The position numbers and the translations under genes were made by a program. Below are positions 6,006 to 63,741 of a stretch of DNA of 64,000 nucleotides, in pieces (position 1 is the stretch's first letter; each line of letters starts with the position of its first letter). The stretch lies in the NCBI GenBank assembly GCA_964019135.1, contig OZ025257.1, positions 17,201,971 through 17,265,970 on the forward strand, read 5' to 3'. The notes beneath the pieces were generated by a model. It saw nothing but the letters and a program-made list of their open reading frames with translations. It was not told the origin of the DNA and ran no database searches. The DNA comes from Arenicola marina. Lineage: Eukaryota > Annelida > Polychaeta > Arenicolidae.

Positions 6006-6944
6006 TTAAGTGATAAAATAAGGATTTAACCTCCCCACTGAAAACCCTTGTGTCTCTTCCGGTCGATAGTTGCACTGAAATATCTCGATGACCTGTCCTG
6101 CCCTCTTGGCTGACTCCCAGACGTCGCCCAACTCCTTCATCCACTTGTCTTTGTCTGGATAGTTGTCCAGCAGGATGATGTTGTCCATGCTGGCCATCTG
6201 CCGGAAGTTATTGTAGTCCGCGAGACACACGGGGTTTCTGTGGCCCCCGTCGATGGATATGACGTCACACTTGACTGCGGGGTTTGCCTGGCGGAACGCC
6301 GGAATCGATGTCGTAGAATCGCCCCATGTGACCGTCAATCTCCCTGGAAACCGTTGCTGTAGGTACTCAGCCATCGGGTGTGCGTAGTCATGTTTACCGA
6401 TGTCAAAGGAGTATACAGTGGTGTTGGGGTTAGCCTGTAGCCACATAAAACTACTGTGACCACCGTTAAACCCGGTCTCACACACTGTCCTGACTAACGG
6501 CGCGCGGACTATGTGGTAATAAGCGATATATTCCTCAATGAAGTTTGCACTGGTGCCCTCCTTTATGCCACCCACCGCCTTTAACCTTTCCTTAAACAGA
6601 TCGTACTCCTGTTGGAATGATTCCGGAAAGGGGTTATTCTTGTCCACGTTCTTGAATAAATCCTGACAATGCGTCAATCCGTTCGGTACGAAAGAGAAGA
6701 TATCATCCCAGTTCCATGTGTGTCTGAGCGGGCTGACTAGACACTCGGGCCGGCTGGGTGGCAAGCCTAGGACGTTGGAAGCCAATGCCGCCGTGTTCGG
6801 CAAGTGACCAAAGAGACCGGCGCTATAGAGATAGAGGAAGCCGAGGAGAACGAGGACTGGGGAAAGCCACAGACAGGCCCTCTTGGAGAGACGCCATTTG
6901 AAACTGTGAGGGCCACGTCGGCCTAATCTTGGCTCTTGCATCAT
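6006..6944 (-). CDS. Type II membrane class I methyltransferase-like protein, copy A1
   Basis: An intact single-exon frame of 312 aa. I chose the ATG at 6944 (MMQEP) because all copies keep this start; an in-frame ATG 96 bases upstream lies in the conserved leader. Residues 1-22 are basic and cytosolic; about 23-44 form one membrane anchor (CLWLSPVLVLLGFLYLYSAG). The domain is a Rossmann class I SAM-binding fold like the Methyltransf_24 group: motif I ETGFNGGHS (156-164), acidic post-I D181 in YSFDIG, DVISIDGGH (227-235) and LLDNYP (259-263). N174 sits in an NTT glycosylation sequon, fitting a lumenal domain. The layout suggests a Golgi or secretory-pathway enzyme; the substrate cannot be told from sequence. 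It is the only intact A copy in the window, with a CCAAT/TATA-like module about 170 bases upstream. Confidence 0.85.
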   Translation of the reverse strand: MMQEPRLGRRGPHSFKWRLSKRACLWLSPVLVLLGFLYLYSAGLFGHLPNTAALASNVLGLPPSRPECLVSPLRHTWNWDDIFSFVPNGLTHCQDLFKNVDKNNPFPESFQQEYDLFKERLKAVGGIKEGTSANFIEEYIAYYHIVRAPLVRTVCETGFNGGHSSFMWLQANPNTTVYSFDIGKHDYAHPMAEYLQQRFPGRLTVTWGDSTTSIPAFRQANPAVKCDVISIDGGHRNPVCLADYNNFRQMASMDNIILLDNYPDKDKWMKELGDVWESAKRAGQVIEIFQCNYRPEETQGFSVGRLNPYFIT

Positions 6945-7089
6945 GTTGAATAACTCACGTGGTTCTTGGTCAAATTCGTGAATCCTTATAACATGGATGT
7001 AGCATAGGATAGAGGGCAGGGGCTTGTATAACAAAAACAACGATCGACACCATAAGCACAGTCAGTGCCGTCATTAACACGTAAATCCC

Positions 7090-9437: not shown

Positions 9438-10385
9438 CTAAGTGATAGAATAAGGATTTAATCGCCCCACTGAAAACCCTTGATTGCTTTTTGGTTCATA
9501 GTTGCACTGGAATATCTCGATGATCTGCCCTGCCCTGCCCTCTTGGCTGACTCCCAGACGTCGCCCAACTTCTGCATCCACCCATATCTGTTATCCGGGT
9601 AGTTGTCCAGCAAGATGATGCCCACGCTGGCCATCTGCCGGGAGTTATTGAAGTCCGCGAGACACACGGAATTTGTGTGGCCCCCGTCGATGGATATGAC
9701 GTCACACTTGACTGCGGGGTTTGCCTGGGGGAACGATGGAAGCGTTGTCGTGGAATCGCCCCACGTGACCGTCAATCTCCCTGGAAATCGTTGCTGTAGG
9801 TACTCGGCGATCGAGTGTGCGTAGTCATGTTGACCGATGTCGAAGGAATACACAGTGGTGTTGGGATTCGCCTGGAGCCACATAGAACTACTGTAGCTAC
9901 CGTTAAACCCGGTCTCACACACTGTCCTGACTAACGGAGCGCGAACTATGTGCTAATAGGCGATAAACTCCTATGTACGTTGCATTTGCGCCCTCCTTTT
10001 TGCCACCCACCGATTTCAGCCTTTCATTAAACAGATCATACTCGCTTTGGAACGGTTCCGGAAAAGGCTAATGCTTGTCAACGTTGTTGAATAAATTCTG
10101 ACAATGCGTCAAGCCGTTCGGTACAAATAGAAGATATCATCCCAGTTCCATGTTTGCCTGAGCGGACTAACAAGACTCTCGGGTCGGCTGGGTGGCTGGA
10201 ATAGTACGATGGAATCCAAGGCCGCCGTATTCCGGGAGTAACCATTGTGAACCGTGCTCTACAGACACAGGATGGCGAGGAGGACGAGGGCTGGGAAGAC
10301 GAGCCACAGACTGACTCACAGTGTTGAGGATACGCCATTTCAAACTGTGGGTAACGGGTCTGCCCGAGCTTGGCTCCTGTATCAT
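9438..10385 (-). pseudogene. Methyltransferase-like pseudogene, copy B1
   Basis: Collinear with intact B2 at 47815-48759, from its start (MIQEPSSGRPVTH, ATG at 10383-10385) to the equivalent stop at 9438. Broken several ways: TAG at 9953-9955 replaces the second Tyr of AYYHIV; two bases are lost near 9968; an extra CCCTG near 9530 shifts the C-terminal frame; and the membrane anchor is lost to frameshift around 10270-10330. Motif I has become ETGFNGSYS instead of ETGFNGGHS. Not expected to make a working enzyme. Confidence 0.85.
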
Positions 10386-14035: not shown

Positions 14036-14858
14036 CATATACAGGTGAGAAATGCATCCTATATTCACAAAAGGGGTTGTTCAAAACCTGTACAAATGAA
14101 GAACAAATGCAATAAATAATTAAATAGAATTAGGCCTGCAAGTATGTTAACTGATCTATATATACTAAAACATTTGTTTCATATTTTTCTTTTCTGCACA
14201 AATGTTCATGAGTGTAAGTTTTAGAATTCTTTCAGCAATCAGTAATATGAAAACAGATGTAGAAATACTGGTAGATGAGTGAAATGCAAAAGTTTAACAA
14301 GTATATATTATTTTATTATTGCTTGGGAATTTTGTTTGGTATGAACAAATGGAGTTGCATTAATTCCACAATCTACCATAATAGTATATCATAAAATGGT
14401 GTTTCATGAATCAGATTTTAATACATGAAACCATTTATATACGGGTTGAGGCAGGCACCAAGCTTATAGTACAGTTCTAATGTCTTTATAGTACAGAACA
14501 CACATCATGCTTGTATAGTTGGCATGATACTTGGTTCCTTGAGTAAATTCCTTCTCATACAGTTTAATCTGTAGCTATAGCCTTCTTTATTCAACAGATT
14601 CCTTTCCTAATTGTATTATAAAAGAGGATATGAACCTAAATCTAAATCAATATATCTAACTGCATAATAATGCTCTTCCCTCAAATAAAATTGACATGAA
14701 ACTATTGCAGTTTTGTAGTTGTATATTTTCAAATGTATAATTCCACATGCAAATCTTACCAGAAGTTGATGTTATTTACATAACAGTTAGCTTGAAGGCA
14801 TGGTTCTCATATCAGGGATGCCTTACAATTGTACTCATTATGACAGACTAGGCTCGAT
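14036..14858. other. No gene seen; element 1 interior
   Basis: AT-rich sequence up to the nested transposon. I see no exon here. Confidence 0.5.
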
Positions 14859-14871
14859 ACCCTTATGAAAA

Positions 14872-15480
14872 AACACCATGGTATACCATGCTAAATTACC
14901 ATGGTATACCATGGTGTTTTGAAACAGGTATACCATGGTATACCATGGTGACTTACCATGGTATACCATGGTAGTCATGGTATACCATGGTGTTTTGAAA
15001 CAGGTATACCATGGTATCTTACCATGGTATACCATGTTAAATTACCATGGTATACCATGGTGTTTTGAAACAGGTATACCATGGTAAATTTACCATGATA
15101 TACCATGGTAAATCACCATGATATACCATGGTAAATCACCATGATATACCATGGTAAATCACCATGATATACCATGGTAAATCACCATGATATACCATGG
15201 TAAATCACCATGATATACCATGGTAAATCACCATGATATACCATGGAAAATCACCATGATATACCATGGTAAATCACCATGATATACCAGGGTAAATCAC
15301 CATGATATACCATGGTAAATCACCATGATATACGATGGTAAATTACCATGGTTAATTACCATGACATCCCATGGTAAATTACCTACCATGGTAAATCACC
15401 ATGCTATACCATGATAAATTACCATGCTGGAACATAGTAAATTCACAATGCTGTACCATGGTAATTTACCATGGTTTATT
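14872..15480. repeat. Left subterminal CCATGG array
   Basis: About 600 bases of repeated ATACCATGGT and related palindromes. The first part repeats blocks with GTGTTTTGAAACAGG spacers. From 15092 to about 15345 it becomes a regular 23-base tandem (ACCATGATATACCATGGTAA then ATC), about eleven copies. It degenerates to 15480. Placed like the subterminal repeats of CACTA elements, which are bound by element-encoded proteins. Confidence 0.9.
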
Positions 15481-16143
15481 ACGATAGTAAATTGTCACGT
15501 TTTAACGTTAGTAATTTGATCATTAGCGTGGCAGCCGGTGTCTATCGATGCACTATGAATATGCGTCATAACCAATTACATCAGTTGCAGTAATAGTTAT
15601 GCGCTTAAAAATGATAGAACAGGTACAACAGGAATAGTACATATTTTAATTGTTTATTCATATATTGCAATTCCTTACCAGTTTATATGCACCACACGTA
15701 CAGATCCGCTTATCAGAAATAGCTTACATTTGCAAACATTATTAAAGATAAAAACAATCTATCAAATACAATATGTACACTACAAATAATTCAAAGTTTC
15801 GAACGAAGTTAAACCATCGTTCGTAGCTTTAATATCTACATATAACCTGAAGCATAGATCTATTTGGTAAAACTATCACAAAAAATCTGCAGTCTTAATC
15901 TGGCTATATGGTAAAAACTATCACAAAAAATCTGCAGTCTTAATCTGGCTATATGGTAAAAACTATGACAAAACACACATTCTTGTATAAATCGCGCTCA
16001 AACTGAATGTAATTGAAAAAAACAACACCCCAAATCAATCTATCGAATATACATATGTAGACATACAAACAATTCAAATTTCAAACCCGAACTTGAATCA
16101 AATTTTATAACTCAAGTTGTGATAATTTATACAGCTATCTGCC
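15481..16143. other. No gene; includes a 44-45 base direct repeat
   Basis: Non-coding sequence downstream of the BEN gene. Two adjacent copies of a 44-45 base sequence (CACAAAAAATCTGCAGTCTT and flanks) lie at 15866-15954. Confidence 0.6.
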
Positions 16144-19100
16144 CTACGCTTTAGATGGTTCCTCCTCCACTACTTGACGTTTACTAATCGTCTTGGTAAC
16201 GTTGCTTAGCTTTTCCCTCATGTACGTGCGCACATCTTTGTCCTCCTTGGCCGGGAATTGACGACGCACGTGATCTGCAACGATACAACCAGTTGTGAAA
16301 TTGAGTATAACAGGAACTTTATACTGGACATCGGACACATATTAATTAATAAATTAAAAAGTACACTTTATTTTATGTACGTATCATGCAATAATACTGA
16401 AGTGGGCTGCATGCTTCGTCTTTAAGATATACATAAGCTTATTCGTAGTTTAGTAAACTAAGTTTAGCTTGCTCCCACATATACAGCCAGCCAAACCGAC
16501 GCCTTAAACTCACGGAACTCACGATAACAACGGGTCAAGCATACATACCTATTATGCTTATAATCTTGTTTCTGGGGAGTGCTGGCTTGGCAGGAGTTCT
16601 CTTGTTTGAGACGGACCCTGTAACCGAATGGTTACACATATCCTTTGTTGTGAAGACGGCCTCCATTAAATCATTGGTCATCTTCCTGGCATCAGCGTAG
16701 TTGGACCGCGCAACAGCATGTTCTGGCAGAGTGTACTGGAAAAAACATATAAAAAATGTTAAATTTAGTTTTATTGCTTGCTTCATACTATTGAATTGTG
16801 GCACTGTTGCCCAACGCCAAAAGTTCTAGTGACTTACCCTATTGAAATACACGGGAAAACGTGCCAAGATAGGCTTTAAAAGAGAATGAATGCTCACACG
16901 TACTATTTCTGCATGGAGCTGTATGGTCTTTGCACTATTTACACCGTCATTATCCCGTAGCTTATGCCTATATAGCGCAGGCGCGTTAACGGTGCATGAA
17001 GTGTTGCCCTATAGTGAATGCAGTAGTGACTGAGACTGCACATGCATTTCTATCGCATCGAAGTATGCTCAATAGGGCAGGTTGAAAAACAACAAAATCG
17101 CGGGACAACATTGCTCGATTTCGAGAGGAAATCGCATACAACTCTGTGACACCATGCAGGCAAATAAATAAGACAGTTCCCCGTTTATATGTTACATTCC
17201 TTAACACCTAATGCCCATCAAACAGATATCTATTTACACAAATTTGAGTGCAGGGATCGGCATCGTTGTATTGAACAAGGCTACCTACGGGATGGAGCTA
17301 CATAAAACTCTATTACGCATGAATAATCTTACAGATTTTCACTTACTACTTTGGTTTCATCGGCTCCACTTAATAATGTCAACTGGTTCTCTGGTTCCAT
17401 GAGTGGTACTGAAGACCTGCCAGCCTTAGATGAGGACAGCTTCAGGGTGTTGGGCGACAGACGTTGGACGGGTAGAGGTCTGTCTTGTCGTGGCGTTCCT
17501 TCATACAACTCCTCTCTCATGTCCTGTAGGAGGGCCTCGAGATGACCTACTCGGACTGTAATCAGAAAACAGATATTAAGTGACAGTTGTTTGCATTAAA
17601 TATGCTTGGTTGTACGTAGCTGTAATTAGCTGTGCACCGTCACAGTGATTACGAATATAGATTTAATTAAATGCCTGAAACTTATATTTAATTATTAAGC
17701 AGTTATAAACAGCAGTTACACCATGCGCATGACTAAGCCATACATACTTAATTGCACAATGACTCTAGTTATATCCCTTAATAAAGTCAGACTAATTAGA
17801 CACCTTTGAGATCTTTGACCTCTTGCTTGTAACTCCTCCACTCTGTTGGGCTTGGACTTATGACAACAGGTTGTGTTATGTCATCATCATCACTCATCTG
17901 TTGAGGCAAATAAATTAGTAATTTGAAACACATCATTTGTCATTTTCATGAACATTTATAGTTCTTTAAAGAGGCTATGGGTGCCATTTAAAATGAGTTT
18001 GAAAGTATTTCACATATATTTTCGGACAGTAACAAATAATAGAACTGTTTAGGTGTCCGGTGTAATGAATATTACATAACTAAAATTACACATTTTACTG
18101 TTCATTATAATATTGCATGCTTAGTATCTTCTTATCAATAGCAAGATAACAGTATGCTGTTTAACTGCATTGATTATTTAAGTATGCTCATGTAGACCTT
18201 TTCCTTCAGAGCATGCAGTAGTGCTTCTGATTTGTTTTTCATGCTAGCTGCCTTGCTGGAATCTTTTGCTTTTTTTGACATCTTCTGTGGAACAATCTGC
18301 AAAATATAAGATACACTCATGAAGGTAATTACCACAGTGGTTATAGTATAATAATACTGTCTAATAACATGCACATCATACCATTTTTAAAATAAAATCT
18401 CATGCTATTTCTGTACCTATACATTTGGCCATTTTCGTTTCATGTTCATATAACTTTATTTTGGTTAACTTGCACTAATGTCAAATAGTTATGCAATGAA
18501 AGTATACATTTGGCAATAAATTGCAATCATGTCTCAGCCTGCAAAGAAAATATAGACTTCCTGCAATTTTTCAGTGAACACCTTCCAACTTTATAACAGT
18601 CTCCTGTACGTTTAAATAGATTCTACATATTGTCATGGCACACATACAAAATAAAGGATATAAGAGACTCTTTAATTGAAATAATAGCAATTAATTCAAA
18701 AGTATATAGACTATAAGCATACTTCACTATCACTGTCACTATCACATAGTTCCAGTTCTTTCTTCTTCTTCGGTATGCGGTGTCCCCTTCCCCGTGCTGG
18801 TGACTTTATAGCTTCTGTGACGTCTCCACTTTCCAAGTACCTCCTAAGTACCTCTCGCAGATGCTTCTGATCATCTGAAGAAATAACTTTTATTGTACAT
18901 TCAAACCAGTGCAATTGGGTTAGTCTATATATCAGACACACATTTCTACTATTTGATCAATAAAATATATCTCTGATATAAATACACGATATTTATATAT
19001 ATATACAGAAACATTTCTACTATTTTACCAATAAAAGAGTAAATGATTAAATAGTAATGATATTTATTCTTACACAAATTTGTCCCCAGGTAAAATATAT

Positions 19101-20136
19101 TATATGAAAAAATGAAATATACAGATTGCTGGTGCAGGGACAATTTTTTGCTAACATGGTGAGGGAGTTGTTATCTAATTCAGCTTATACATAATTAGAC
19201 TTCAATGTGGGCCATATACTGCCATGTTATGCAATATGAAGGCTAACTTGATAATTAAATATATACATGTTTTAATTACACAATTAAGTTAACATTTATA
19301 ATATATAATTCCACTTCGCAGGGATGGATTTAAGCCTAATGATTTTGGAGTAAATGAAAGATAAATAAGCAGCCTTTTTGCATATTCATTCAAGTTGTAT
19401 TTCCTGTTCACTACATTACAACATTAATAAGATTAGATCTATATTGACAATAGATATATTAAGTATACCCACAAATGTATATCAACATTTTGGTCTACAT
19501 TGAAATTTACTCACATAGATCTCCACATTTAGCAATATCTTAATTACTTTAAAGCAGGATTTTTATTTACTGGAAAATATATATTTGTATTCATAGCATA
19601 TAACTTAACTATAGACGGGTCTACTAGCCTATACCCAACAACTAATAGGATAATTCTGATGTTATTAAAATTTAAGCCTTTTTTTTAGCTAAAATAATTG
19701 GTGCATAGATAGATAGATGTTTATTTAATATAGTGACATGGTACGTTGTAGAGGTCACACATTGAGACAATAAATAAGTAAATCATTGGAGGTAAAAAAA
19801 ATGCTGTATGAATTGAATATGAGTAGACTCTATGAGCAACTTTAAGCTTAGCCTACCTGTCCTTGGTCCTTTAAATTAATTTATGTATTGAGACATAAAT
19901 TAAAATAGATTGATAAGAGGTTCAATTATTTTCAACTCACCACTGAAGTGCAGAACCTTCGCAACAACCTTCCTTGCCGGCCTGCTGTTAGATATTGGCC
20001 ACTGGACCACAACTTCTGTTTCCATGCGGAAATCCTGATCGTTGCAATTCTCTACGTCCACGCCTTCTATCCAGACAGATTCACCTATTTCAGTGGCCCC
20101 ATCTTCATTTACAAAATCGAATAAAGCGTACTTCAT
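16144..20136 (-). CDS. BEN-domain protein carried by the transposon (8 exons)
   Basis: Exons on the minus strand: 19941-20136, 18723-18874, 18198-18296, 17804-17897, 17347-17555, 16838-16918, 16549-16735 and 16144-16274. They total 1149 bases, 382 aa, with all phases consistent; only the exon 3 donor (GTCTAC) is weak. Residues 1-66 (MKYALFDFVNEDG...VVVQWP) resemble the N-terminal module seen in other BEN proteins. A basic stretch (RGRGHRIPKKKK) and acidic run (DSDSDSE) follow, then a leucine-rich probable coiled coil (VRVGHLEALLQDM). The C-terminal part (YADARKMTNDLMEAVFTTKD, then HSVTG, LPRNKIISII and DHVRRQFP) fits the helical BEN domain, a DNA-binding fold known to recognise short, often palindromic sites. 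Expected in the nucleus. I infer that it binds the element's palindromic arrays. An in-frame ATG at 20214 could extend it by 26 aa. Confidence 0.75.
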
Positions 20137-20534
20137 CTTGTTAACGGTAGCGATTGAAAAATCTAAATTATGATATAGGCTAGGTACGTCGATCAGGAGC
20201 TGCCGAAGATTCAACTGTAACTGAATCCGAGGCAGCTAGCACAGGCGGGAAACGGCAAAGGATCCTACTTCCGTTTCCGATACTAAAATCAGGAACGCAT
20301 GCGGAAAGGAGAAGGAACGATAATTGTCAGAATTTTTGATAGTCGCTTACATACTCAACTGTAATGTGGCGATAAATTAATTTAAGCATTCTGATCAATG
20401 TAAAATGTATGTTGATTGTCAATACGTCATATAACAATGAAGCTATCTTGTAACATTGACGATGCCACTGGCGCAAAGCAAATTGTTGGTGTTTTACTTT
20501 TAGTATATGCCAACTCGATCCCGAAGCGCTGAAT
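20137..20534. promoter_or_regulatory. Shared divergent promoter region
   Basis: The 398 bases between the start codons of the two divergent genes are the only upstream space for either, so they should hold both promoters. I see no clear TATA box at the expected place for either gene. Confidence 0.5.
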
Positions 20535-23500
20535 ATGGCGACTAACAAAAATGTTCGTCAAAGATATAAAAGGTATTTACGTGACCCAGAAATCAATATA
20601 CCAAGAGCAACAAAGTGGAGAAGGACACGGCAAGACAATGGAAGCGAAGGGATACAGTTAACCTCTCAGTTTCATAGTGATTCTGGCAGTGGGTCGGAAT
20701 CAGATGGTGATGTGTCCTCGAACTCCAATTCTGATCTTGCCGAAAAGAGCGAACACTTCGAAGGATTAGAAGCTGGAAATGATTTCAACAATGAGGTTTG
20801 TAGCACTACTTTGATTATAGTCAATCAAAATTGATAACCTGGTGAATTTAGTGTTTCAACCAAGAATATAACATTTTTTAACTTGTTAAGCTTAGATCTA
20901 CCTACAACGTGTTTATAACTAGGCCTAAGTTCTTACTTAATTTACCGGTAAGTAAAAGACTATAGGCTACCCTACCTACAAGTCAACTATTGTCAATTGA
21001 TACACTGTTTTTCCAGAATTTTATATTTTTCTCACCATTTGAACAGTATTACATCCAGTCTGTTTAGTCTACCGAGCACAATAATATAAAATATAGTTTT
21101 AGTAAAATTTGTTTCTAGAGGATTCTTGATTGTATAGATTTATGTGATGTTAACAACACTGAAAAATAGAAATAAGCATGATGACTATAGATCTATATAT
21201 TATTTTTACATTAGATCTATTTTATTCTATAAATAGATCTATATGCCTACCAAATATATAACAAATATAGATATGTAGATCTCTTATCAATTTGTTTTGG
21301 CAGCTAATGCATCATTTAAAAAGTATATTATTATATATTACTAAATAAAAAATAAAATATATACAATGCATTGTTACCATGCAAGGAAATGAATCTATAT
21401 AAGTGATTGTATATTGAGCAGGAGGCATAGCTGTAGACATCCTTATATATGAGGGATATTATAATTATTCTGTTTAAAACTTTTTCATCAATGGTGCCAT
21501 GACAATATTGGCTAGCTATATGTTCGGATTAATCTATTTGAAAAAAAAATGTTAGTGGCGCTTGATATCATAAAACAGCTTTTTCTCTGTTTGAATTGGT
21601 ATCTTCTTGTTATTCACATGGGGATTGTCATCAAATTTTAATAGTTCCCTAGTAATTAAGAGTGCCTTGGTTTTCATTGACTAGATAATTATATACCTGT
21701 AGTCATGTTGCCCCTATTTAGCTCTCTGTAGGTCACTGATATTTGGTACTTCATCATATATAATTAAGGCTGAGTCATGTTAATTTAATGTTACCAACTT
21801 GAAGTTACAATTTTACATGAAAAACAGATTTTTTTGACTGAAAATGATGTAAGCTCATATATTGTTAGCATTAAATATGTTAAATATACACATGTAGGTA
21901 TACAATAAATAATGTGACATTTCCAACTTTATTTAGCCAAGTTGGTGCATCTTGGGTGGGAGGAAGTGAACATGGCTTAACTTCCCCTATATATGGTCTT
22001 CAATATTTAGACATTTCTTACTGTTTATCTCTGCATGTTAAATATTGCTTTCATTAAATTTTGACTGTAAAATCACAGAAATACATACAAAACAGCAAAA
22101 TCTATAAATTATTTATGTTTATTGAGTTTAATTACCCAATCATTGTATTGAGTTTCTTTTGTACTCTAGTTTTACCGGTATGTTGAAATATTTTAAATAA
22201 TGTTTTATTTACAAGTATTGGACATACATATTGTAGTGATCTTTTTATGAGGTATAACTCTTATTTTGTAGGTATCGATGTTTTAGCTAGGGTTATAAAT
22301 GGATATACTTCGAGATTATACTAACATTTATTTTCTTTTTTATTTCTAGGTATTACATGAGCATCCTGGTTGTGAGAACCATTTGACAGAAGCCATCCTT
22401 GATGACCATTCCATATACGAGGGTTCATCTGTTACTAGAGGCCAAGCACTCGGACTTGCTATTGCTTATGCCTTGAGGAATAACATTGCTGGAGTTGCAC
22501 TGGCTGGTCTTTTGGATCTAGTCAACACGTTAGTACCTGGGAGTCTACCTAAAACAAAATACTACATAGAAAAACTATTGTACTCTCAGGCTGACCAAGT
22601 TCAGTATGACTTCTACTGCTCAAATTGTCAGTGCCTATTTGGCCCAGCCCCGCAACATGAATCTTGCCCAGACTGTGCCACTTTGTTCAGAAAGGAGGAT
22701 GCTTTAAAAGAAGGAAGCTACATCTTGCGCATGCCACTAGCCAACCAGATCAAGTCTCTTTTCGAAGACCACGGCATTTCCGATATCATTCTCAAAGACC
22801 GACATTCCAGTCGAGAGGTCATCAAAGACATATATGATGGAAAATGTTATCAGCAGGCGGAAGTGCAAGCCTTTTTGCAGAATTCTGACAACATTTCGAT
22901 GACATTCAACACAGATGGAGTCCCAGTGTTCTCATCATCAAATTTTTGTATTTGGCCAGTACTCTGTACAATCAATGAGCTTCCACGATCCAAGAGACGT
23001 GACTACGTGTTAGTGCACTCTTTATGGTTTGGCAAACACAAACCAAGGATGGACACTTTGATGCAGCCTTTCGTCGATGAAATGTGCTCTTTGAAAGATG
23101 AAGGAGTTCAATGGGAACGGAACAATGAGTTGCACACAACAAAATGTATCGCATTGGTTTGTGCATGTGACTCTGTAGCTCGGTGTGCAGTTCAGAACGT
23201 CAAACAGTTCAATGGCGAATATGGTTGTTCCTTTTGCCTGCACCCAGGACAGGTTATTTGTAAAGGCAGAGGATATACCCGAGTATATCCGGCTGATATT
23301 TGCATGGAGCAAAGGTCCCATGCTCAAAACTTACGTCATGCAGAAGAAGCTGTAACATCTGGTGATGCCGTCTTTGGTGTAAAGGGGCCATGCATCCTGT
23401 ATCAGCTTCCCTACTTCGATGTCATTAAAGGCTTCTCACCAGATTACATGCATTCAGCATTGTTGGGTGTGTCGAGGCAGTTCGTCAACGTATGGCTGGA

Positions 23501-24626
23501 TACAGGAAACAATGGGGAACCATACTATCTAGGGCCTGAAGTAGCTCGACTTGACGACAAACTCTCGGCAATTCGACCCCCAAGCGAAGTGACACGCTTG
23601 CCACGTTCCTTGCTAGAGAGGAAGTTCTGGAAGGCCAACGAATGGCGGGCTTTTCTCTTGCTGTATTCGCCAGTTATTCTGCAACATGTCTTGCCACTGC
23701 GCTATTTCCGCCACTGGATGTTATTCAGTGTTGCCATTAGCGTTTTCTTGTCCAGTGAAATCAGCCGTCGAGATATCCACATGGCTCATGTTTGCCTTGT
23801 GAAGTTTGTGTCTGAGATTTCAGCATTGTATGGAATAGAACATGTTTCATATAACTGTCACTTGATGGTCCATCTGGCAGATAGTGTGAAAAACTGGGGC
23901 CCTTTATGGGCAACTTCTTGCTTTGTGTTTGAGGATACAGCTGGAAGGCTGTTATCCTACTTCCATGGAACACAACATGTGTCGATACAAATGTTCAAGA
24001 GATACTTAGCAAAGAGGACTCTAGTGCGGTTCCATGAATCGTTTGTAGATGCAGCCGAACATGTTACCGAAACATTTCAAAGAATGAGTGACACAATCGT
24101 CAAACGAAGCAAGTGCATCAAGATTTCGGAAGATTGTTCTGCCTTCACCGAAAATCTTGAACGCCTTACAGCAACAGATGCGCTCGCAATTGAGGCCACT
24201 TTGGGTAGGCCTGTTCTAAATAGAAGTTGCATGACTGTACACAGATTCTTGAAGGATAGTGTTCTGTTCACAAGCTCGGAATACTCCGCAAAATTTAAAC
24301 GAAATAATTCGTTCGTCCTTCTTGCGTGTGGCAACTTTGGTACCATTAAGAAAATGGTTCGAATTAGACTGAGCTGCACTTGTGATTTAGCCCACTGTGA
24401 CTGTGATGTTACAACTTTCATTATCGTAGAGAAAATGACCAAACTGCCACTCGGACAAATGCATGATGGTGATGCTCAAACTGATTTACTTCAGTTTAGA
24501 AAACCGATCCATGAAAGTCAAGAACATGTGGCGTGCCTTTTGAATGCTACATTAACCAAAGTCTGTGTCTGTGAGGCAGCAGGTTCCAAGTATGCAATTC
24601 CTTTGCCTGTGTTTGAGTTTGATTAA
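20535..24626 (+). CDS. TNP2-like (CACTA/CMC group) DDE transposase, 2 exons
   Basis: Exon 1 is 20535-20795 (87 codons, donor GAG/GTTTGT). The 1.55-kb intron ends TTTCTAG and exon 2 is 22350-24626, giving 845 aa without interruption. Exon 1 codes a basic then Ser/Asp-rich start. Exon 2 has a CxxC...CxxC zinc-binding pattern (CSNCQC ... CPDC, about residues 177-200), then the TNP2 core: FNTDGVPVF (D276), INELPRSKRRDYVLV, LWFGKHKP, CACDSVAR (D361), GCSFCLHPG, PDYMHSALLGV and FVFED (E615). The D, D and E positions fit the catalytic triad proposed for CACTA-type transposases, which cut element ends and rejoin them elsewhere. YNCHLMVHLADSVKNWGPLW is also typical of the family. It probably acts in the nucleus on the ends at 14859 and 26264. 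Confidence 0.85.
20796..22349 (+). other. Intron of the TNP2-like transposase
   Basis: 1554 bases, AT-rich, GTTTGT donor and TTTCTAG acceptor. No coding or repeat structure seen inside. Confidence 0.8.
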
Positions 24627-25674
24627 TGAAAGGTGTGGATGATGCATTTAGGACAAAATGGGTGGTTCTTTTACACCAAAACGATATGCATGTTGCATAT
24701 AGTTTAGAATTACTTTAGTCATTGCATGTGTAAATACTTAAGGCAAGAATAGCATGTCCTGCTTGCATCAAAAGTCTATATATGTCACTGCATATATGAA
24801 ATTAAATTTATATAAGAGCACTTACGTCTGGTTTATTACATGAAGATTAAATACATGTACTGTTGTGCTATAAACTGAGAGAATTTGTAACCTGTTAACC
24901 CTAAGAAGTACCACACAGGATCATGGTCATATTTGTTGACTGTAGAATCAGTATGATTCTGTTATTACTGTGGTACAATTAATTGTTGAAATAAGATTCT
25001 TTTATGTTCACTTTTGTGGTAGCTTTTCACTGTGATATGTATCTTCAATAATACTCAATGATGACAGACTTGAAATCGCAGTTGTGTTATTTTCTTGTGT
25101 GGCTAATTTTAATCACTTTGTATGCATATATTTTAGTAAGGTGTAAAGCTGTAGCATGTACAAATTTGCTAGCAAAACAACACCACAAAATTATTCACTA
25201 CTCACAAAGAATGCCTTTACGGAATAAAGACCAGGTTCCTCATAGACCATTCCAGATGCCCCTGACAACATCTATGATCCTGTTAGAAAACCGCTTTCAA
25301 TGCGTTTGCTATGGTTTATGTTCTTTTTCAGGGCTAGCTAGGTTAGCTGTATATGGCATATTCACAGAACAAACACAACAGATTTCTCTATAAACTTTCC
25401 TTTTAGTATTATATTATAAAATGGAATCACAGATGTTTTTTCACCCTGTTAACTTACCATAAACTGTTGGAACTTATGCAACTATAGGTCTTCACTTACC
25501 TTATGCGTGCTATGCAGTGCAGCTAGAGCCAGCTATCGAGTTACCTGACATATGCACCTGCCAGAATTACCCCTGATCATCGTCATGATCAACATATTGC
25601 CAAAACCATGCCACAGAATAATATCGTGATAATTATACATTTGTGGCCATATATAATCAGTAAAAGGAACAGTA
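24627..25674. other. Downstream of transposase, no gene seen
   Basis: AT-rich sequence between the transposase stop and the right array. Short open frames here show no family features. Confidence 0.6.
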
Positions 25675-26264
25675 TGTATACCATGGTATACTTTAAGAAT
25701 GTATGACATGCATGATACACACAGGGTAGCATCAGGGCATATATCATGGTTTATCATGATATACCATGGTTTATAATTGTATACCATGGTACCTCCATGG
25801 TAGGCTTGAGTTGCCATGATTTTCATATTAAATACCATGGCAGAATGTGCTATATATCATGGTTTACCATGTTATACCAAGGTTTATCATAGCATACCAT
25901 GGTATACCATGATATTCCATACCCTACCATACATGTACCATGGTATACCATGATATTCCATACCCTACCATACATGTACCATGGTATACCATGATATTCC
26001 ATACCATGCCATACATCTACCATGGTATATCATGGTAGGGTAGGGTATATCATGATATACCATGGTACATGTATGGTAGTATATGAAATATCATGGTATA
26101 CCATGATATATCATGGTATACCATGGTATATCATGGTACATGCATGGTAGGGTATTGTATATCAAGGTATACCATGATATATCATGATATACCATGATAT
26201 ACCATGGTATACCATGGTATACCATGATATACCATGGTATATTATGGTGTTTTTTCGTAAGGGT
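25675..26264. repeat. Right subterminal CCATGG array and inverted end
   Basis: Dense ATACCATGGT/ATATACCATG palindromes. A longer direct repeat at about 25900-26000 (containing CCATACCCTACCATACATGT) recurs inverted at about 26030-26090, so this end can fold extensively. It finishes with the terminal inverted repeat to 26264. Confidence 0.88.
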
Positions 26265-27089
26265 ATATCACTGAATACAATCAGTTACTTCAATTTTTCT
26301 TTTAGTATAAATAGGATAACAGTAATATTTTAGGTAGTCTACCATAATATCCATAAGCAGCTGTATTACAAGGCATTTTGCATATTTAGCACATAATCAC
26401 AGGAAAAGCTTCAATATGTTGTATTGATTCACCTTATACAGTAAGTCATCAATTCCTGACTCCATAATTCAGAACCATATACAGGGAAGGTGATTCTGCA
26501 GTTACACAAATTCACATTTATTTACATAAATTTGTGTCTAAACTCTTAAATAGGCATATTAAAGTGCTGGACATATTTTGCTGGATGTGCAATCACTGGT
26601 ACCATTGCTTTTGACCACAGGCACCCTGACCAGCTGATACGGTCACTGACACCCCGGACCGTCAGCTGATCGGGGTGCCTGCATGGGGCTGCATGTGTTT
26701 TTTTGTTTGACAGCAATGTCAGCATTCATCAATGACGCCCGTTTTAACTAGATCTACCTAAACTAACAGATAATTTAGAAATGACTAAGAATTGTATCAG
26801 AAAGTGTCTTCACAACAAGAAAATGTAAGAAAAAATTCTAGCAATCTAGAAACACTGAGAAAAGGAAAGTGACCTTTTGCCGCACCGAAATGATTGAGCG
26901 ATAATGGGGAAGAACATCTTTACACTTTAAAGAGGATTATACACATAAAGGAACTTAATTCGAGGTAAATAAATGCTCAAAACTTCGACCTTTGTGAAAC
27001 TTTATCAACTTATGCACTTTTATTAGCGGACAGACGCGTCCGTTGTCACAGCGCAGATGAAAATGTCACGAATGCATTCATTTGTTTAC
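26265..27089. other. Element 1 right interior, no gene
   Basis: Matches the right interior of element 2 (about 34800-35249), with the order kept. Non-coding. Confidence 0.7.
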
Positions 27090-47814: not shown

Positions 47815-48759
47815 CTAAGTGATAAAATAAGGATTTAATCTCCCCACTGAAAACCCTTGCTTGTTTTTTGGTTCATAGTTGCACTGGAATATCTCGATGA
47901 TCTGCCCTGCCCTCTTCGCTGACTCCCAGACGTCGCCCAACTCCTTCATCCACCCTAACCTGTTATCCGGGTAGTTGTCCAGCAGGATGATGTTTTCAAC
48001 GCTGGCCATCTGCCGGAAGTTATTGAGGTCCGAGAGACATACGGGGTTCGTGTGGCCCCCGTCGATGGATATGACGTCACACTTGACTGCGGGGTTTGCC
48101 TGGCGGAACGCAGGAAGCGATGTCGTGGAATCGCCCCACGTGACCGTCAATCTCCCTGGAAACCGTTGCTGTAGGTACTCGGCCATCGGGTGTGCGTAGA
48201 TATGTTTACCGATGTCGAAGGAGTACACAGTAGTGTTGGGGTTCGCCTGTAGCCACATAAAACTACTATGGCCACCATTAAACCCGGTCTCACACACTGT
48301 CCTGACTAACGGCGCGCGGACTATGTGGTAATAGGCGATAAACTCTTCTATGTACTTTGCACTTGAGCCCTCCTTTATGCCACCCACCGATTTCAGCCTT
48401 TCATTAAACAGATCGTACTCTCGTTGGAACGGTTCCGGGAAAGGCGAATCCTTGTCAACGTTGTTGAATAAATTCTGACAATGCGTCAAACCGTTCGGCA
48501 CAAAAGAGAAGATATCATCCCAGTTCCATGTTTGTCTGAGCGGACTGATTAGACCCTCGGTTCGGCTGGGTGGCCGGCCTAGTACGATCGAATCCAAGGG
48601 CGCCTTATTTCGGGAGTAACCATTATGAACCGTTCTGTACAGATACAGGACGGCGAGGAGGACGAGGGCTGGGAAGACAAGCCACAGATGGACTCTTTTG
48701 GGGAGACGCCATTTTGAACTGTGCGTAGCAGGTTTGCCGGAGCTTTGCGCCTGCATCAT
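47815..48759 (-). CDS. Type II membrane class I methyltransferase-like protein, copy B2
   Basis: Intact single-exon frame, 314 aa, starting MMQAQSSGKPATHSSKWRLP at 48759. A single membrane anchor (VHLWLVFPALVLLAVLYLYR, about residues 23-42) is followed by a stem and the SAM-binding domain with ETGFNGGHS, YSFDIGKH, DVISIDGGHT and LLDNYP, all as in A1. The catalytic part is nearly identical to A1, while the N-terminal 60 residues differ more. The end RLNPYFIT is conserved. A secretory-pathway methyltransferase is the best guess; substrate unknown. Its upstream DNA is abnormal: unit sequence stops at about 48769 and resumes at 52232, so the ancestral CCAAT module is 3.46 kb away. Expression would need a new promoter or a long leader. 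Confidence 0.85.
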   Translation of the reverse strand: MMQAQSSGKPATHSSKWRLPKRVHLWLVFPALVLLAVLYLYRTVHNGYSRNKAPLDSIVLGRPPSRTEGLISPLRQTWNWDDIFSFVPNGLTHCQNLFNNVDKDSPFPEPFQREYDLFNERLKSVGGIKEGSSAKYIEEFIAYYHIVRAPLVRTVCETGFNGGHSSFMWLQANPNTTVYSFDIGKHIYAHPMAEYLQQRFPGRLTVTWGDSTTSLPAFRQANPAVKCDVISIDGGHTNPVCLSDLNNFRQMASVENIILLDNYPDNRLGWMKELGDVWESAKRAGQIIEIFQCNYEPKNKQGFSVGRLNPYFIT

Positions 48760-48769
48760 GTCGAATAAC

Positions 48770-51700
48770 GGCCTTCTATTCCTTGTTTATCTGGCCCTTG
48801 CTTAGCCCAAGCCGAGGTATCAGTCCGCACGGTAGGTGTATGCTGGGTCTATGCCAGCCTAGGGTGGTATGTATGGGATTGGCGGGAAAGAAGGGTTCGA
48901 GCCGGAAGAGCACACTGTTCCAGTCTAGTCACGGCCGTCTCGGGGAGTCGCTAGGTGCCGAGGCGTTACCCGGTAGATGTACGGTGCTAGGTCGATGCGT
49001 GATATATGGCGCCTGGCGTTTCTATTTCGTATGGTGTGCATGCTTCTCTTGCGGCTTCAAAGTCCTCGTTCCTCCTAAGCCCGGGTTGACGATTGTACCG
49101 TATTAGCCACTCGGCAACCGTGTTATGGTATGATTAAGTCAACGCTTTGCCGGTCGGTCAGTTTTGTGGCCAAGTAGATGTGCCTGATAATCGGGCAAAG
49201 TCCAGCTATGGGTTTTTATGAAGAAATTTCGTCATATGTCAGTTGGTCGTGTTTGTATATTTGTATGTCTGCTTCACGAAAAAACGGGAAGTCTTCTTGT
49301 GACCTAACGGCTGCATACATCAGTTCGAAGTCTTTGGTATCTAATAGCTAGGCAATAGGGCTACATCATTCTCGTCACCCAGATTAAAAGATCAAAGGTC
49401 AAGGTCACAGCGATTTTTTTTGAAAAACTAACTAAAAACGTTTATATCTCTGTTCATATTGATGCTACAGATCTCTGGTCAGTGTCAAAATGTGCTATCA
49501 TTCAAGGCGCATTTTTAGGCATGTTTACTTTTTGATGCGTAATAGTCATTTTCGAGCAAAATGAGGTCATAATTTTTGCGGAAAACGCACTAAATGACCT
49601 CTGTCAGTTTTCTCGCCTTTGGACACATTTGCCATCAAGCTATCGCTATGATGTTCCAATATGCGATAGAGATATGAATTGAGATGAATTGTGTCGATTC
49701 TTAGTGTTTTCTAATGCGTCCCGTGACGTCACGATGACGTCATTTTTGGTACTTAAAAAATCGTCAAAAATGTATTTTACAAGTGCCTCCATCAAGAGAC
49801 ACCGAGATTATTTTCCTTAGCCTTAGCCTCAATGCTTACCGCATGCGATTGGATCAAATAGTGACGTCACAGGATTTTTTTGAAATTTGGCCAATGGTGA
49901 AAGATACAGCTTTTTGATGTTAGCAGATGCTACCACGGGCGTCCTATTCAAGCGATCACTCAATGCTTGCAGCTGTGGATGGATAATACTAAGCTGAGTC
50001 ATAATCTGTCGACATGGTTCTATAGCCATATAACATTTTGGTATGTAGTTGAAATCGTTTAACATGGGATCCTATGGGGAAAAATGAACTTATGTGAATA
50101 TGACCCACTTCCGCTCAAGCTACTTCAGTCTCCTTCACCACACAGTGAGGTAATATTACGTTAAAGCAAGTGATAAGAAAAACAAGGCGATCTCTGTATT
50201 ACTTTTTGTTTCCATGTCAACGAAGCCACTGGCCTAATGATAAACATACAGATTCTTGCCATTGAAAGAAAAATCGTCAAAAATCAGATAAAAAGGCTAA
50301 AATTGCAATCTTTTCGCCAACTAGTTGCCAATAAGCATTTACAGATTACTTAATGCTTCAATCCGGCGGATGTTGCTCAGTTATGGCGCTAGAGCGCTTC
50401 GAAGTGGGACGACACTTTTGCGAGGCCGCCAAATGGAGATTGTGTTCATCTTGAAAACAACGTCAAAATTAAGAAAAACATGCCAGAGCTGTGATCTTTA
50501 CGCCAAATGGTAGGGACCATTGATCTTCAGAGAACTATGAAAAGAAACAAATGAGTTGCTATATCACTTCGTCTGCAGTGTGCTTTGTTCTTGTCCTAGT
50601 GCAACTTTTGGCCATTTCGTCAAGCCATAGCTGAAGGACTATTCTTTCTATCGCCTAGCTCTTTAATATAATGAGTTGTGGCAGTGGCGTATTGCCACCT
50701 GGACGTTGTCGTGCGTCACGTCATAACGTCACTATAATTTCGGGACGTCACATATATTCTGTAAGCTATTACTCAGCTATTATAAGGGATGGCGTCAAAA
50801 ATTACGTCATAGCTAACGTGCTCCTACAAAATGTTAGCTTTGCTTTATTTTCAGCCACTTTGGCAAACGCTATCATAAATCGGGTTCATAAGTAGATATA
50901 TTAAGGAAATACTGAGTTCAGCAATCGCTCTTGACTTCAAAAATACATGTTTACTTAAACTCTAACATGGTATTAAATTGGCGGGCGGACGATGAGTCAC
51001 ATGGCGTCATCGTGATGTCACCGGCACAAACCACGGCTTGACCTCGAATTCCGCTAACATCGGTGAATACAGTGTGCAATTGCTCAAAATAGAGCCTGCG
51101 GTGCGCACCCTAGCATACCCCTAACCCTATCCCTAAGCCTAACCATACATAGCGCCTCCAGCGTGCATATTGCCAATTTAAAGGTCAAGCCAGCCGACTC
51201 GGCATGTCCAATAGTCAAGATGCTGGAATAAAAAAATGAACCTATTTTTCATTACTAATTAGCGAACAGCATCCCTGTTCGGATCAACAGGTTCAGAAAG
51301 ACACGCTCTATGACCCAAAACATTTTCGTCATCATCAGTGTCCCACTGAATTCTTGTTGCTGTTGTCGTCGCGGCATGACCGTAAGCTGGCCGACCGGCC
51401 GCCGGCGTGCAAGATTTTAACCGTTAACACTCCACAACCCCAGTCAACACCACACCCCACAGCTCAGCCCACACTCCCCCCACACCCCACAGCCCAGTTA
51501 ACACACACCCCACACCCCACACCGCACCCCATACCCAACACCCAAATTAACAACCCCATTCCACATCCCGCACCCCACATCCCACATCCCGCACCCCACA
51601 CCCCGCACCCCAGTCGACACACTCCACAGCCCACCCACACCACATCAACACAAACACCCCACATCCCATATCCCACAGCCCAGCCCACACCCTATACCGA

Positions 51701-62803: not shown

Positions 62804-63741
62804 TTAGGTGATAAAATAAGGATTTAACCTCCCCACTGAAAACCCTTGTGTCTTTTCCGGTCGATAGTTGCACTGAAATATCTCGATGACCTGTCCTGCC
62901 CTCTTGGCTGACTCCCAGACGTCGCCCAGTTCCTTCATCCACTTGTCTTTGTCTGGATAGTTGTCCAGCAGGATGATGTTGTCCACGCTGGCCATCTGCC
63001 GGAAGTTATTGTAGTCCGCAAGACACACTGGGTTTGTGTGGCCCCCATCGATGGATATGACGTCACACTTCACTGCGGGATTCGCTTGGCGGAACGCCGG
63101 AATCGATGTCGTAGAATCGCCCCACGTGACCGTCAGTCTCCCTGGAAACCGTTGCTCTAGGTAATCGGCCATTGGGTGTGCGTAGCCATGTTTACCGATG
63201 TCGAAGGAGTACACAGTGGTGTTGGGGTTAGCTTGTAGCCACATAAAACTGCTGTGGCCACCATTAAACCCGGTCTCACATACTGTCCTGACAAACGGCG
63301 CTCGCACTATATGGTAATAGGCGATAAACTCTTCTATGTACTCTGCACTTGTGCCCTCCCGTATGCCACCCACCGCCTTTAACCTTTCCCTAAACAGATC
63401 ATACTCCCATTGGAATGTGTCAGGAAAAGGATAATCCTTGTCCACGTTCTTGAATAAATCCTGACAACGCGTCAAGCCGTTCGGTACAAAAAAGAAATAT
63501 CATCCCAGTTCCATGTGGGTCTGAGCAGGCTGACAGGACCCTCGGGCCGGCTGGGTGGCCGGCCTAGTACGATGGAACCCAAGGCCGCCGTGGTCCGGGG
63601 GTTACTACTGTGACCGGTGCTGTACAGATACAGGACGCCGAGGAGAACGAGGGCTGGGCAGAGCCACAGGCAGGCCCTCTTGTGGAGACACCATTTGGAA
63701 CTGTGAGGGCCACGTTAGGCCAAATCTGGCGCTTGCATCAT
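62804..63741 (-). pseudogene. Methyltransferase-like pseudogene, copy A3
   Basis: The SAM-binding domain is open and well kept for 223 codons (62804-63475), with ETGFNGGHS, YSFDIGKHGY, DVISIDGGHT and LLDNYP, and the stop position is the same as in A1. Upstream, one base is missing in the WDDIFSF region (about 63495), shifting the frame. Another single-base loss near 63726 puts a TAA nine codons after the ATG ATG start at 63741. Only two small lesions separate it from an intact A gene, so it died recently or one lesion could be a sequencing error. Confidence 0.8.

Follow-up and report, generated by a model that had tools for sequence, protein, structure and literature searches.

A TNP2-Type DNA Transposon of Arenicola marina Carrying a Gene for a BEN-Domain Protein, the Probable End-Binding Partner of Its Transposase

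The Element and Its Two Genes

The 64,000-nucleotide stretch of Arenicola marina DNA analyzed here (contig OZ025257.1, positions 17,201,971 to 17,265,970; hereafter the window) contains a DNA transposon in which two divergently oriented genes, one for a TNP2/EnSpm-type transposase and the other for a protein ending in a BEN domain, are enclosed by terminal inverted repeats (TIRs) and by arrays of short palindromes (Table 1). The element occupies window positions 14860-26263 (11,404 bp), has the TIR CCCTTAYGAAAAAACACC and is bordered by a 2-bp target site duplication. Its left end 5'-CCCTTATGAAAAAACACCATGG and right end ...CGTAAGGG-3' are common to the window copy and to a copy at the locus C20. 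The target duplication is taken as 2 bp because the bases outside the ends, TA/TA in the window, TC/TC in the C20 copy and CC/CC in the relative C364, fit this length in three elements; C364 begins with CCCTTAAGAAAATTCACTATAGT and closes with a matching inverted repeat. Three near-identical two-gene copies are present elsewhere in the host genome. The C20 copy is 99.9% identical to the window element over the right 6.5 kb and 98.8% identical over the left 4.9 kb. In this left part (14860-19757, including the left array) gaps (56 positions) far outnumber mismatches (4), and array copy number probably changes faster than the genes do. The window-family TIR pattern has 334 genome matches at up to two mismatches (reversed control, 0) and the C364-type pattern has 93 (reversed control, 1). 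The element is probably an autonomous, recently active cut-and-paste transposon of the animal TNP2/EnSpm (CMC) kind.

The transposase has an open frame of 845 amino acids and matches the Transposase_21 profile PF02992 with 38.1 bits (cut-off 28.6), which places it in the TNP2/CMC clade. A search with it found 160 homologous proteins, taken without genomic context, and the 120 matches listed include fish, sea star, oyster, wasps, ticks, thrips, mealybug and metagenomes. In an exon-2 alignment of the window transposase with 35 of these homologues (36 proteins), D274, C293, C296 and H504 are invariant and D189, H508 and E528 nearly invariant (exon-2 numbering). The putative D, D, E, CxxC and HxxxH columns are thus invariant or nearly so, a pattern described as the CMC signature (PMC12730594).

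The BEN gene, whose start codon lies 398 bp from that of the transposase gene, encodes a protein with three parts. The N-terminal domain comprises about 65 residues, with 12 invariant columns across four subfamilies; no Pfam family matches it over the cut-off, and its single-sequence structure model (mean predicted local distance difference test score 47.8) is uninformative. The middle, judged by eye, is probably a coiled coil. The C-terminal domain matches the BEN profile PF10523 with 47.9 bits (E 1.6e-12, cut-off 23.2) and is spread over the last two exons (exon 6 alone, 31.4 bits). A BEN gene of similar layout was rebuilt, with splice sites picked by a simple score, in the diverged elements C17 (322 aa) and C364 (370 aa). 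All three proteins have an ALFDF start. Their gene models agree in the phase and position of two introns, the first one, which directly follows the N-terminal domain, and the one that interrupts the BEN domain. PF10523 scores 38.2 bits in C17 and 44.0 bits in C364, and 27.6, 25.3 and 28.3 bits in the BEN proteins of C9:40, C3:56 and C9:30, respectively; that of C17:20.9, scored with part of exon 6 missing from the query, reaches 17.3 bits, below the cut-off. Compared with solved chains, a three-member BEN profile matches BEND6 (7yul, E 9.1e-20), Insv (4ix7, 5.8e-7) and Elba1 (4x0g, 0.026). Pfam matches such as SgrR_N, Mis12 and IL6 on the BEN protein stay under the cut-off and were rejected. 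Among 7,995 candidates scored in a homologue search with the BEN protein alignment none reached E <= 0.001, probably because the search was swamped by low-complexity words, and none of the nine candidates from the BEN region alone was accepted, a result that says little about other species.

An earlier model reading of the window, made from the sequence without database searches (the sequence-only reading), had recognized much of this organization. Its 845-aa TNP2-like DDE transposase and C-terminal BEN-like domain are borne out by the open frame and the profile scores, and its two divergent genes with open spliced frames by the GT/AG joins. The matching inverted ends also stand, on a span that it had drawn one duplicated base too wide on each side (14859-26264), and the BEN protein it gave as 382 aa becomes one of 355 aa with the seven predicted exons.

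Table 1. Features of the transposon and its borders (window positions).
Feature	Position	Strand	Basis
Target site duplication, left (TA)	14858..14859	.	comparison of window, C20 and C364 flanks
Left terminal inverted repeat, CCCTTATGAAAAAACACCATGG	14860..14881	+	common to copies; genome pattern matches
Left subterminal CATG array, 25 ACCATGGT, consensus TACCATGGTA	14875..15485	.	
BEN-protein gene, 355 aa, predicted splicing	16144..20136	-	seven exons, GT/AG joins, open frame
BEN gene exons 1-4	20136-19941, 18874-18723, 18296-18198, 17897-17804	-	
BEN gene exons 5-7	17555-17347, 16735-16549, 16274-16144	-	
C-terminal BEN domain, exons 6 and 7	16147..16735	-	PF10523; profile match to 7yul
N-terminal domain (MKYALFDF...VLHFS)	19942..20136	-	aligned in four subfamilies
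Interval between divergent start codons, presumed shared promoter region	20137..20534	.	position only; promoter function inferred
TNP2/EnSpm-type transposase gene, 845 aa	20535..24626 (exons 20535-20795, 22350-24626)	+	open frame, GT/AG joins, PF02992
Right subterminal CATG array, 12 ACCATGGT	25680..26238	.	
Right terminal inverted repeat, reverse complement CCCTTACGAAAAAACACCATAA	26242..26263	-	matches left end; C20, C3 and C5 right ends
Target site duplication, right (TA)	26264..26265	.	flank comparison

Pairing of the Two Genes in the Host Genome

In the host genome (867 Mb) the BEN profile has at least 36 matches at E <= 0.001, 27 of which sit between TIR pairs of two types, with 16 of these 27 forming one tandem array. 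Twelve transposase matches span essentially all of exon 2 (group 1, full-length), and upstream of every one of them BEN exons lie on the other strand (C10, i.e., the window element, C20, C5:17.1, C3:31.6, C17:1.2, C5:29.7, C364, C11:12.5, C9:7.8, C7, C17:20.9 and C9:40.9). Ten of these twelve transposases are TIR-bracketed. Both genes lie within matching TIRs in 12 elements of three subfamilies, whose transposases are down to 37% identical. Six of these elements have TIRs of the window type (window, C20, C5:17.1, C3:31.6, C17:1.2 and C5:29.7) and six have the second TIR type (C364, C225, C7, C9:7.8, C11:12.5 and C11:15.7); in the C20, C3 and C5:17.1 copies the right end was read directly. A thirteenth TIR-bracketed element is C12:1.33, in which transposase and BEN gene are both partial. 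Some transposases are damaged, with one stop each in C11:12.5 and C7 and several in C11:15.7, and the C225 match covers residues 16-577 only. The further copies that the sequence-only reading had proposed to look for thus do have a BEN gene within the ends of this family, and the BEN protein is encoded by the same element as the transposase, as expected of a TnpA-type partner. With the Transposase_21 profile, 19 loci exceed the cut-off and BEN exons are detected at ten of them (at C348 the first exon only).

Most matches of a genome search with the BEN exons (92 of 124) consist of the last BEN exon alone. These were rejected as other BEN genes. A window-family TIR in the correct orientation lies 0.8-2.3 kb from 14 of the 92, and two last-exon loci read over 4-5 kb contain a ACCATGGT array and a TIR end and no frame above 138 aa; these are most likely deletion derivatives. 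The remaining 78 are without a TIR link in a test that drew on 90 of the 334 TIR places, namely the listed ones with one mismatch or none.

Several other arrangements were observed in passing. The tandem array mentioned above lies in a 54-kb element of the C364 family (C11:12506729-12561106) in which the BEN 3' exons are tandemly repeated (16 matches, 2,809-bp spacing) between two TIR matches. Four C364-type BEN genes without a detected transposase lie at C1:42.98-43.40 Mb (L001, L002, L051 and L053), and for two of them a TIR match of the C364 type follows roughly 1 kb beyond the end of BEN; the four may be BEN-only remnants or retained genes. At C3:31638952-31655082 a copy of the window element stops about 200 bp short of exon 2 in a BEN gene of the C364 type. 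Exon 1 of that gene was not found, a C364-type TIR follows the gene, and the arrangement is apparently a nested insertion. C364-type TIR pairs 10-11 kb apart also occur without a transposase match (e.g., C4:21756112-21767509, C5:13615596-13627005 and C7:12965549-12976038). Around the element itself, minus-strand open frames of related look at window positions 6009-7061, 9461-9952, 47818-48786 and 62807-63499, with another at C10:17.27 Mb, represent a probable host gene family.

Terminal Palindromes and the BEN Recognition Helix

The tetranucleotide CATG occurs 45 times in the 641 bp of the left array (70 per kb) and 40 times in the 593 bp of the right one (67.5 per kb), an approximately ten-fold enrichment over six other stretches (0, 5.3, 5.9, 7.1, 7.3 and 8.6 per kb). 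The 85 CATG sites of the ends yield the palindromic consensus TACCATGGTA, which is found at none of the 197 CATG sites in window positions 27001-64000. The arrays begin inside the TIRs, and CATG is at background level across 16144-24626. Copies of ACCATGGT frequently lie 10, 23 or 24 bp apart in the window element and 10, 12 or 13 bp apart in C17. The two window ends contain 41 and 40 perfect 8-bp palindromes, where 200 first-order simulations gave at most 24 and 27, and seven of nine flanks exceed all 200 simulations. Short derivatives in which a TIR pair about 200 bp apart encloses array repeats and no gene space (C1:75953069 and C1:17773887) fit proteins acting in trans on the ends. Separately, an unrelated coiled-coil BEN gene, L003 (C5:38822022-38822450), has six AACATGTT palindromes past its stop and is perhaps another element with a BEN reader; a single related locus, split into two pieces, lies at C9:40.87.

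The palindromes differ between clades, being TACCATGGTA in one and TACTATAGTA/TTCTATAGAA in others. In the CATG class, ACCATGGT is counted 37 times in the window element, 84 times in C17, and 10 and 16 times in two non-autonomous loci. The TATA class includes C364 (33 ACTATAGT and 26 ACTACAGT, either orientation), C3:56.5 (11 ACTATAGT on the BEN side, 10 TCTATAGA and 5 ACTATAGT on the other), C9:40.9 (TCTATAGA 20 and 12), C17:20.9 (7 ACTATAGT on the transposase side), and the further loci C18:29.9 (9), C1:73.25 (23) and C1:43 (3). Left out of the comparison of helices and sites were L043 (a last exon present only at the wrong place), L053 (no last exon, no ACTATAGT), L054 (two overlapping elements, both classes) and L003 (the unrelated BEN gene).

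The predicted recognition helix of the BEN domain reads MREK[LI]SNV in the CATG class and [LIM][RT][QT]KLNN in the TATA class. The positions that differ between the classes are E333 and S336 (window numbering), occupied in the TATA class by Q or T and by N, respectively; N337 is constant, and K340 is constant save for Arg in C17:20.9 and C1:43. In the profile-to-BEND6 alignment S336, N337 and K340 fall on Asn261, Asn262 and Lys265. The available text on the BEND6 complexes gives Asn261 and Lys265 as base contacts, with Asn262 as a further one in the methylated complex (PMC10206803). The BEN domain of NACC1 selects ACATGT, with CATG as its core (PMC7764960), and has been solved on CATG DNA, where Asp462, Thr465 and Arg469 of α5 contact bases (PMC11472053). 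By residue spacing, and not by sequence alignment, a point that weighs against pressing the comparison, we infer that E333, S336 and K340 correspond to these three residues; acidic and hydroxyl side chains would then be kept in the CATG class only. The predicted reading helix of the BEN domain changes in step with the end palindromes, a pattern that suggests that the BEN protein is the element's own end-recognition protein.

The histories of the two genes are also linked. Identity matrices of transposase and BEN protein over seven lineages correlate with a Mantel r of 0.85, a value reached in 11 of 5,040 label permutations. The ratio of nonsynonymous to synonymous differences (pN/pS) is 0.21-0.41 in the BEN exons (six comparisons, two overlapping, of exons 6-7, plus exon 1 in one) and 0.23 and 0.38 in two transposase pairs, with most synonymous values near saturation. 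In the least saturated BEN pair, C364 and the C1:43 Mb copy, pS is 0.57 and pN/pS 0.21. Since the values of the two genes are alike, purifying selection holds the BEN protein about as strictly as the transposase.

Proposed Mechanism and Alternative Explanations

The reading that we consider likely, already put forward in the sequence-only reading and supported by the analysis, is that the BEN protein is a TnpA-like end-binding partner of the TNP2-type transposase. Anatomy, pairing, selection and site classes are observed; binding, synapsis and requirement are putative. In plants, as the available texts describe it, transposition requires TnpA, which recognizes the subterminal repeats, as well as TnpD (PMC1636069; PMC2613891). 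By analogy, the BEN protein would bind and join the arrays and the transposase would cut at the TIRs. In such a pathway the BEN protein would form a dimer or oligomer, probably through its middle coiled coil, as reported for the BEN protein BANP (PMC11472053), and its C-terminal helix (α5) would enter the major groove of the end palindromes (TACCATGGTA in the window element). The protein would thereby coat and synapse both ends, as is thought for plant TnpA/TNP1, and the DDE transposase, as the TnpD counterpart, would cut at CCC/GGG and join the element into a 2-bp target. Each element family would re-tune helix and array jointly, with E333/S336 going with CATG and Q or T/N with TATA.

Several observations weigh against this reading. 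Some concern the pairing of the genes. The TIRs of two of the full-length elements, C17:20.9 and C9:40.9, were not located, and their nearest BEN exons lie 3 kb and 13 kb off. Nine of the 19 Transposase_21 loci lack detected BEN exons. They include C17:31.23, a long open TNP2 frame with no BEN gene in the 9.5 kb before it; C4:19.70 and C3:40.22, which have 901-aa frames and no BEN gene in the genome-wide BEN searches (their surroundings were not read); the decayed TNP2 loci C13:42.1, C8:6.2 and C3:56.3; and C101 and two C11:19.8 loci, where no BEN exons were detected and the upstream DNA was not read. Other observations concern the sites. Palindrome numbers at the C3:56.5 flank (16, simulated maximum 17) and at L047 (27, maximum 29) are within the simulated range. 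C9:30.3 belongs to the CATG class by TIR match only, its fetched flank being without an array, and L066 has 13 TCTATAGA about 2 kb from its own ACCATGGT array. The BEN side of C17:20.9 has 6 ACTACAGT, 1 ACTGTAGT, 1 ACCATGGT and 0 ACTATAGT, and its stretch ends in a ACCATGGT cluster beside a C17-type last exon and TIR end, a cluster that we assign to a neighboring element. Finally, the window element, C17 and C9:30 are mutually closest in both proteins, which reduces the covariation of helix and site to few independent events, and host BEND6, whose reported preference in the accessible literature is not CATG, shares the Q and N of the TATA class, residues that may be ancestral. The change of helix and site class may for these two reasons have happened once.

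Among the alternatives, the one with most in its favor is that the BEN protein is an element-encoded transcription or anti-silencing factor that acts on the arrays outside the transposition complex. According to the accessible texts, the majority of human BEN proteins function in connection with chromatin (PMC11472053), maize Spm TnpA also controls its own promoter (PMC1636069) and fungal DNA transposons carry chromatin-acting accessory genes, e.g., TET/JBP (PMC12730594). However, arrays of the same class lie at both ends, from inside the TIRs, and none surrounds the 0.4-kb interval between the start codons, CATG being at background there; moreover, the derivatives of about 200 bp retain TIR and array repeats, and we regard this explanation as unlikely. 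That the BEN gene is instead a functionless passenger, a host gene captured once, could be argued from the resemblance of element BEN domains to host BEND6 (43% for the C9:40 BEN). Yet lineages with transposases that are 35-45% alike all have the gene in one orientation, and wherever the N-terminal domain was read it is the same; both the co-inheritance and the purifying selection on BEN speak against a passenger, which makes it highly improbable. That the transposase gene lies beside a host BEN gene by chance, a view for which no supporting point was found, is refuted by the TIR-pair searches, and its probability is close to nil: BEN matches are rare in the genome, and most of them sit between TIR pairs, with both genes bracketed in 12 elements.

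Relation to Known Two-Component Systems

Like plant CACTA elements, the window element has subterminal repeat arrays at both ends, and its family, like theirs, includes deletion derivatives that retain the ends. The plant CACTA/En-Spm (TnpA and TnpD) and Tam1 (TNP1 and TNP2) systems likewise combine a TNP2-domain transposase with a second element protein, which in the plant elements recognizes the subterminal repeats, a role that we infer for the BEN protein. Its termini, in contrast, read CCCTTAYG, i.e., CCC...GGG ends and not the CACTA start of canonical plant elements. Its target duplication is 2 bp in three elements, whereas that of plant CACTA elements is 3 bp, its sites are perfect palindromes, and the BEN protein derives from a divergent gene of its own and not from an alternative splice product. 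Because termini, target duplication and class of partner are unlike those of plant CACTA elements and the two-protein working is shared, the element would represent a variant of a CACTA-like system. The second proteins of plant families are themselves described as unrelated and yet similar in role (PMC2613891).

In animals, the TRC/EnSpm elements (SmTRC1 and relatives in sea urchin, Ciona, zebrafish and Aedes) are CACTA-superfamily transposons with Transposase_21 and further proteins from spliced transcripts, and the accessible text on SmTRC1 does not mention a BEN domain (PMC1636069). Reading of transposon ends by a BEN-like fold is described for DBD1 of Tn3-family TnpA, which reads a box of the inverted repeat; this domain is bacterial, lies within the transposase and was found by fold similarity, and neither a separate protein nor palindrome arrays are mentioned in the available portion of the report (PMC9579193). 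Among host proteins, NACC1/NAC1 reads a CATG-core palindrome with the C-terminal helix of its BEN domain; it is a BTB-BEN transcription factor of the host and comes without a transposase (PMC7764960; PMC11472053). The solved BEN domains nearest by sequence, BEND6 (7yul/7yun), Insv of Drosophila (4ix7) and Elba1 (4x0g), are host factors as well. Fungal TET/JBP transposons, EnSpm included, carry an accessory gene on the element, the product of which is an enzyme probably directed against silencing and not an end-reader, and the word BEN is absent from the available text (PMC12730594). The titles and abstract openings listed in searches of the full-text literature, outside which Repbase and most subscription papers fall, contained no BEN gene carried by a transposon; the one near match is the Tn3 paper, with its fold likeness within a bacterial transposase.

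A sister group of 15 more distant TNP2 matches (31-36% identity over the middle, mostly frames of about 700 aa) shows a different arrangement. At 11 of the 15 loci an exon for a 65-residue N-terminal domain (MLLIVEFTETNEVEVVPSCW...) lies on the same strand 0.5-0.9 kb past the match end, e.g., at C10:17281201-17283976 (L064/L065). This domain is different from, or very diverged from, that of the BEN protein (the likeness of the two is not significant, with a probability of 5%). Animal TNP2 elements may thus have a second gene as a general feature. As the partner in this group, DUF4806, which the accessible text of PMC11075544 (citing Pan et al., 2023) classes as a subtype of BEN, was considered and rejected, with no genome match over the cut-off (best, 19.2 bits).

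Ancestry and Implications

Human BEND6 is 43% identical at aligned positions to the BEN protein of C9:40.9, which in turn is 29% identical to that of the window element, and none of the seven inner branches is resolved in a small tree of element BEN proteins, BEND6 and Insv. At the sequence level, these identities are compatible with the common ancestry of host and element BEN proteins suggested in the sequence-only reading, in either direction. A broader proposal, which is speculative and which we think rather unlikely than likely, is that BEN domains form the end-reading half of animal TNP2 transposons or have come to do so repeatedly, that host factors of the BEND5/BEND6 type, and perhaps more of the BEN family, descend from such element proteins, and that, with Tn3 DBD1 taken into account, the reading of transposon ends could be an old job of this fold. 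If it were true, the BEN code would be directly readable, each helix being accompanied by an array, encoded in the genome, of the palindrome that it prefers.

In animal CACTA-like elements the second protein is largely a blank in the literature consulted, and here it has a recognizable DNA-binding domain. The element thus offers a testable two-component transposition system with its probable target written alongside, and its relatives a natural data set of helices and sites for the BEN domain, the host targets of which are known in part. It would also provide a concrete and testable source for the BEN chromatin factors of host genomes.

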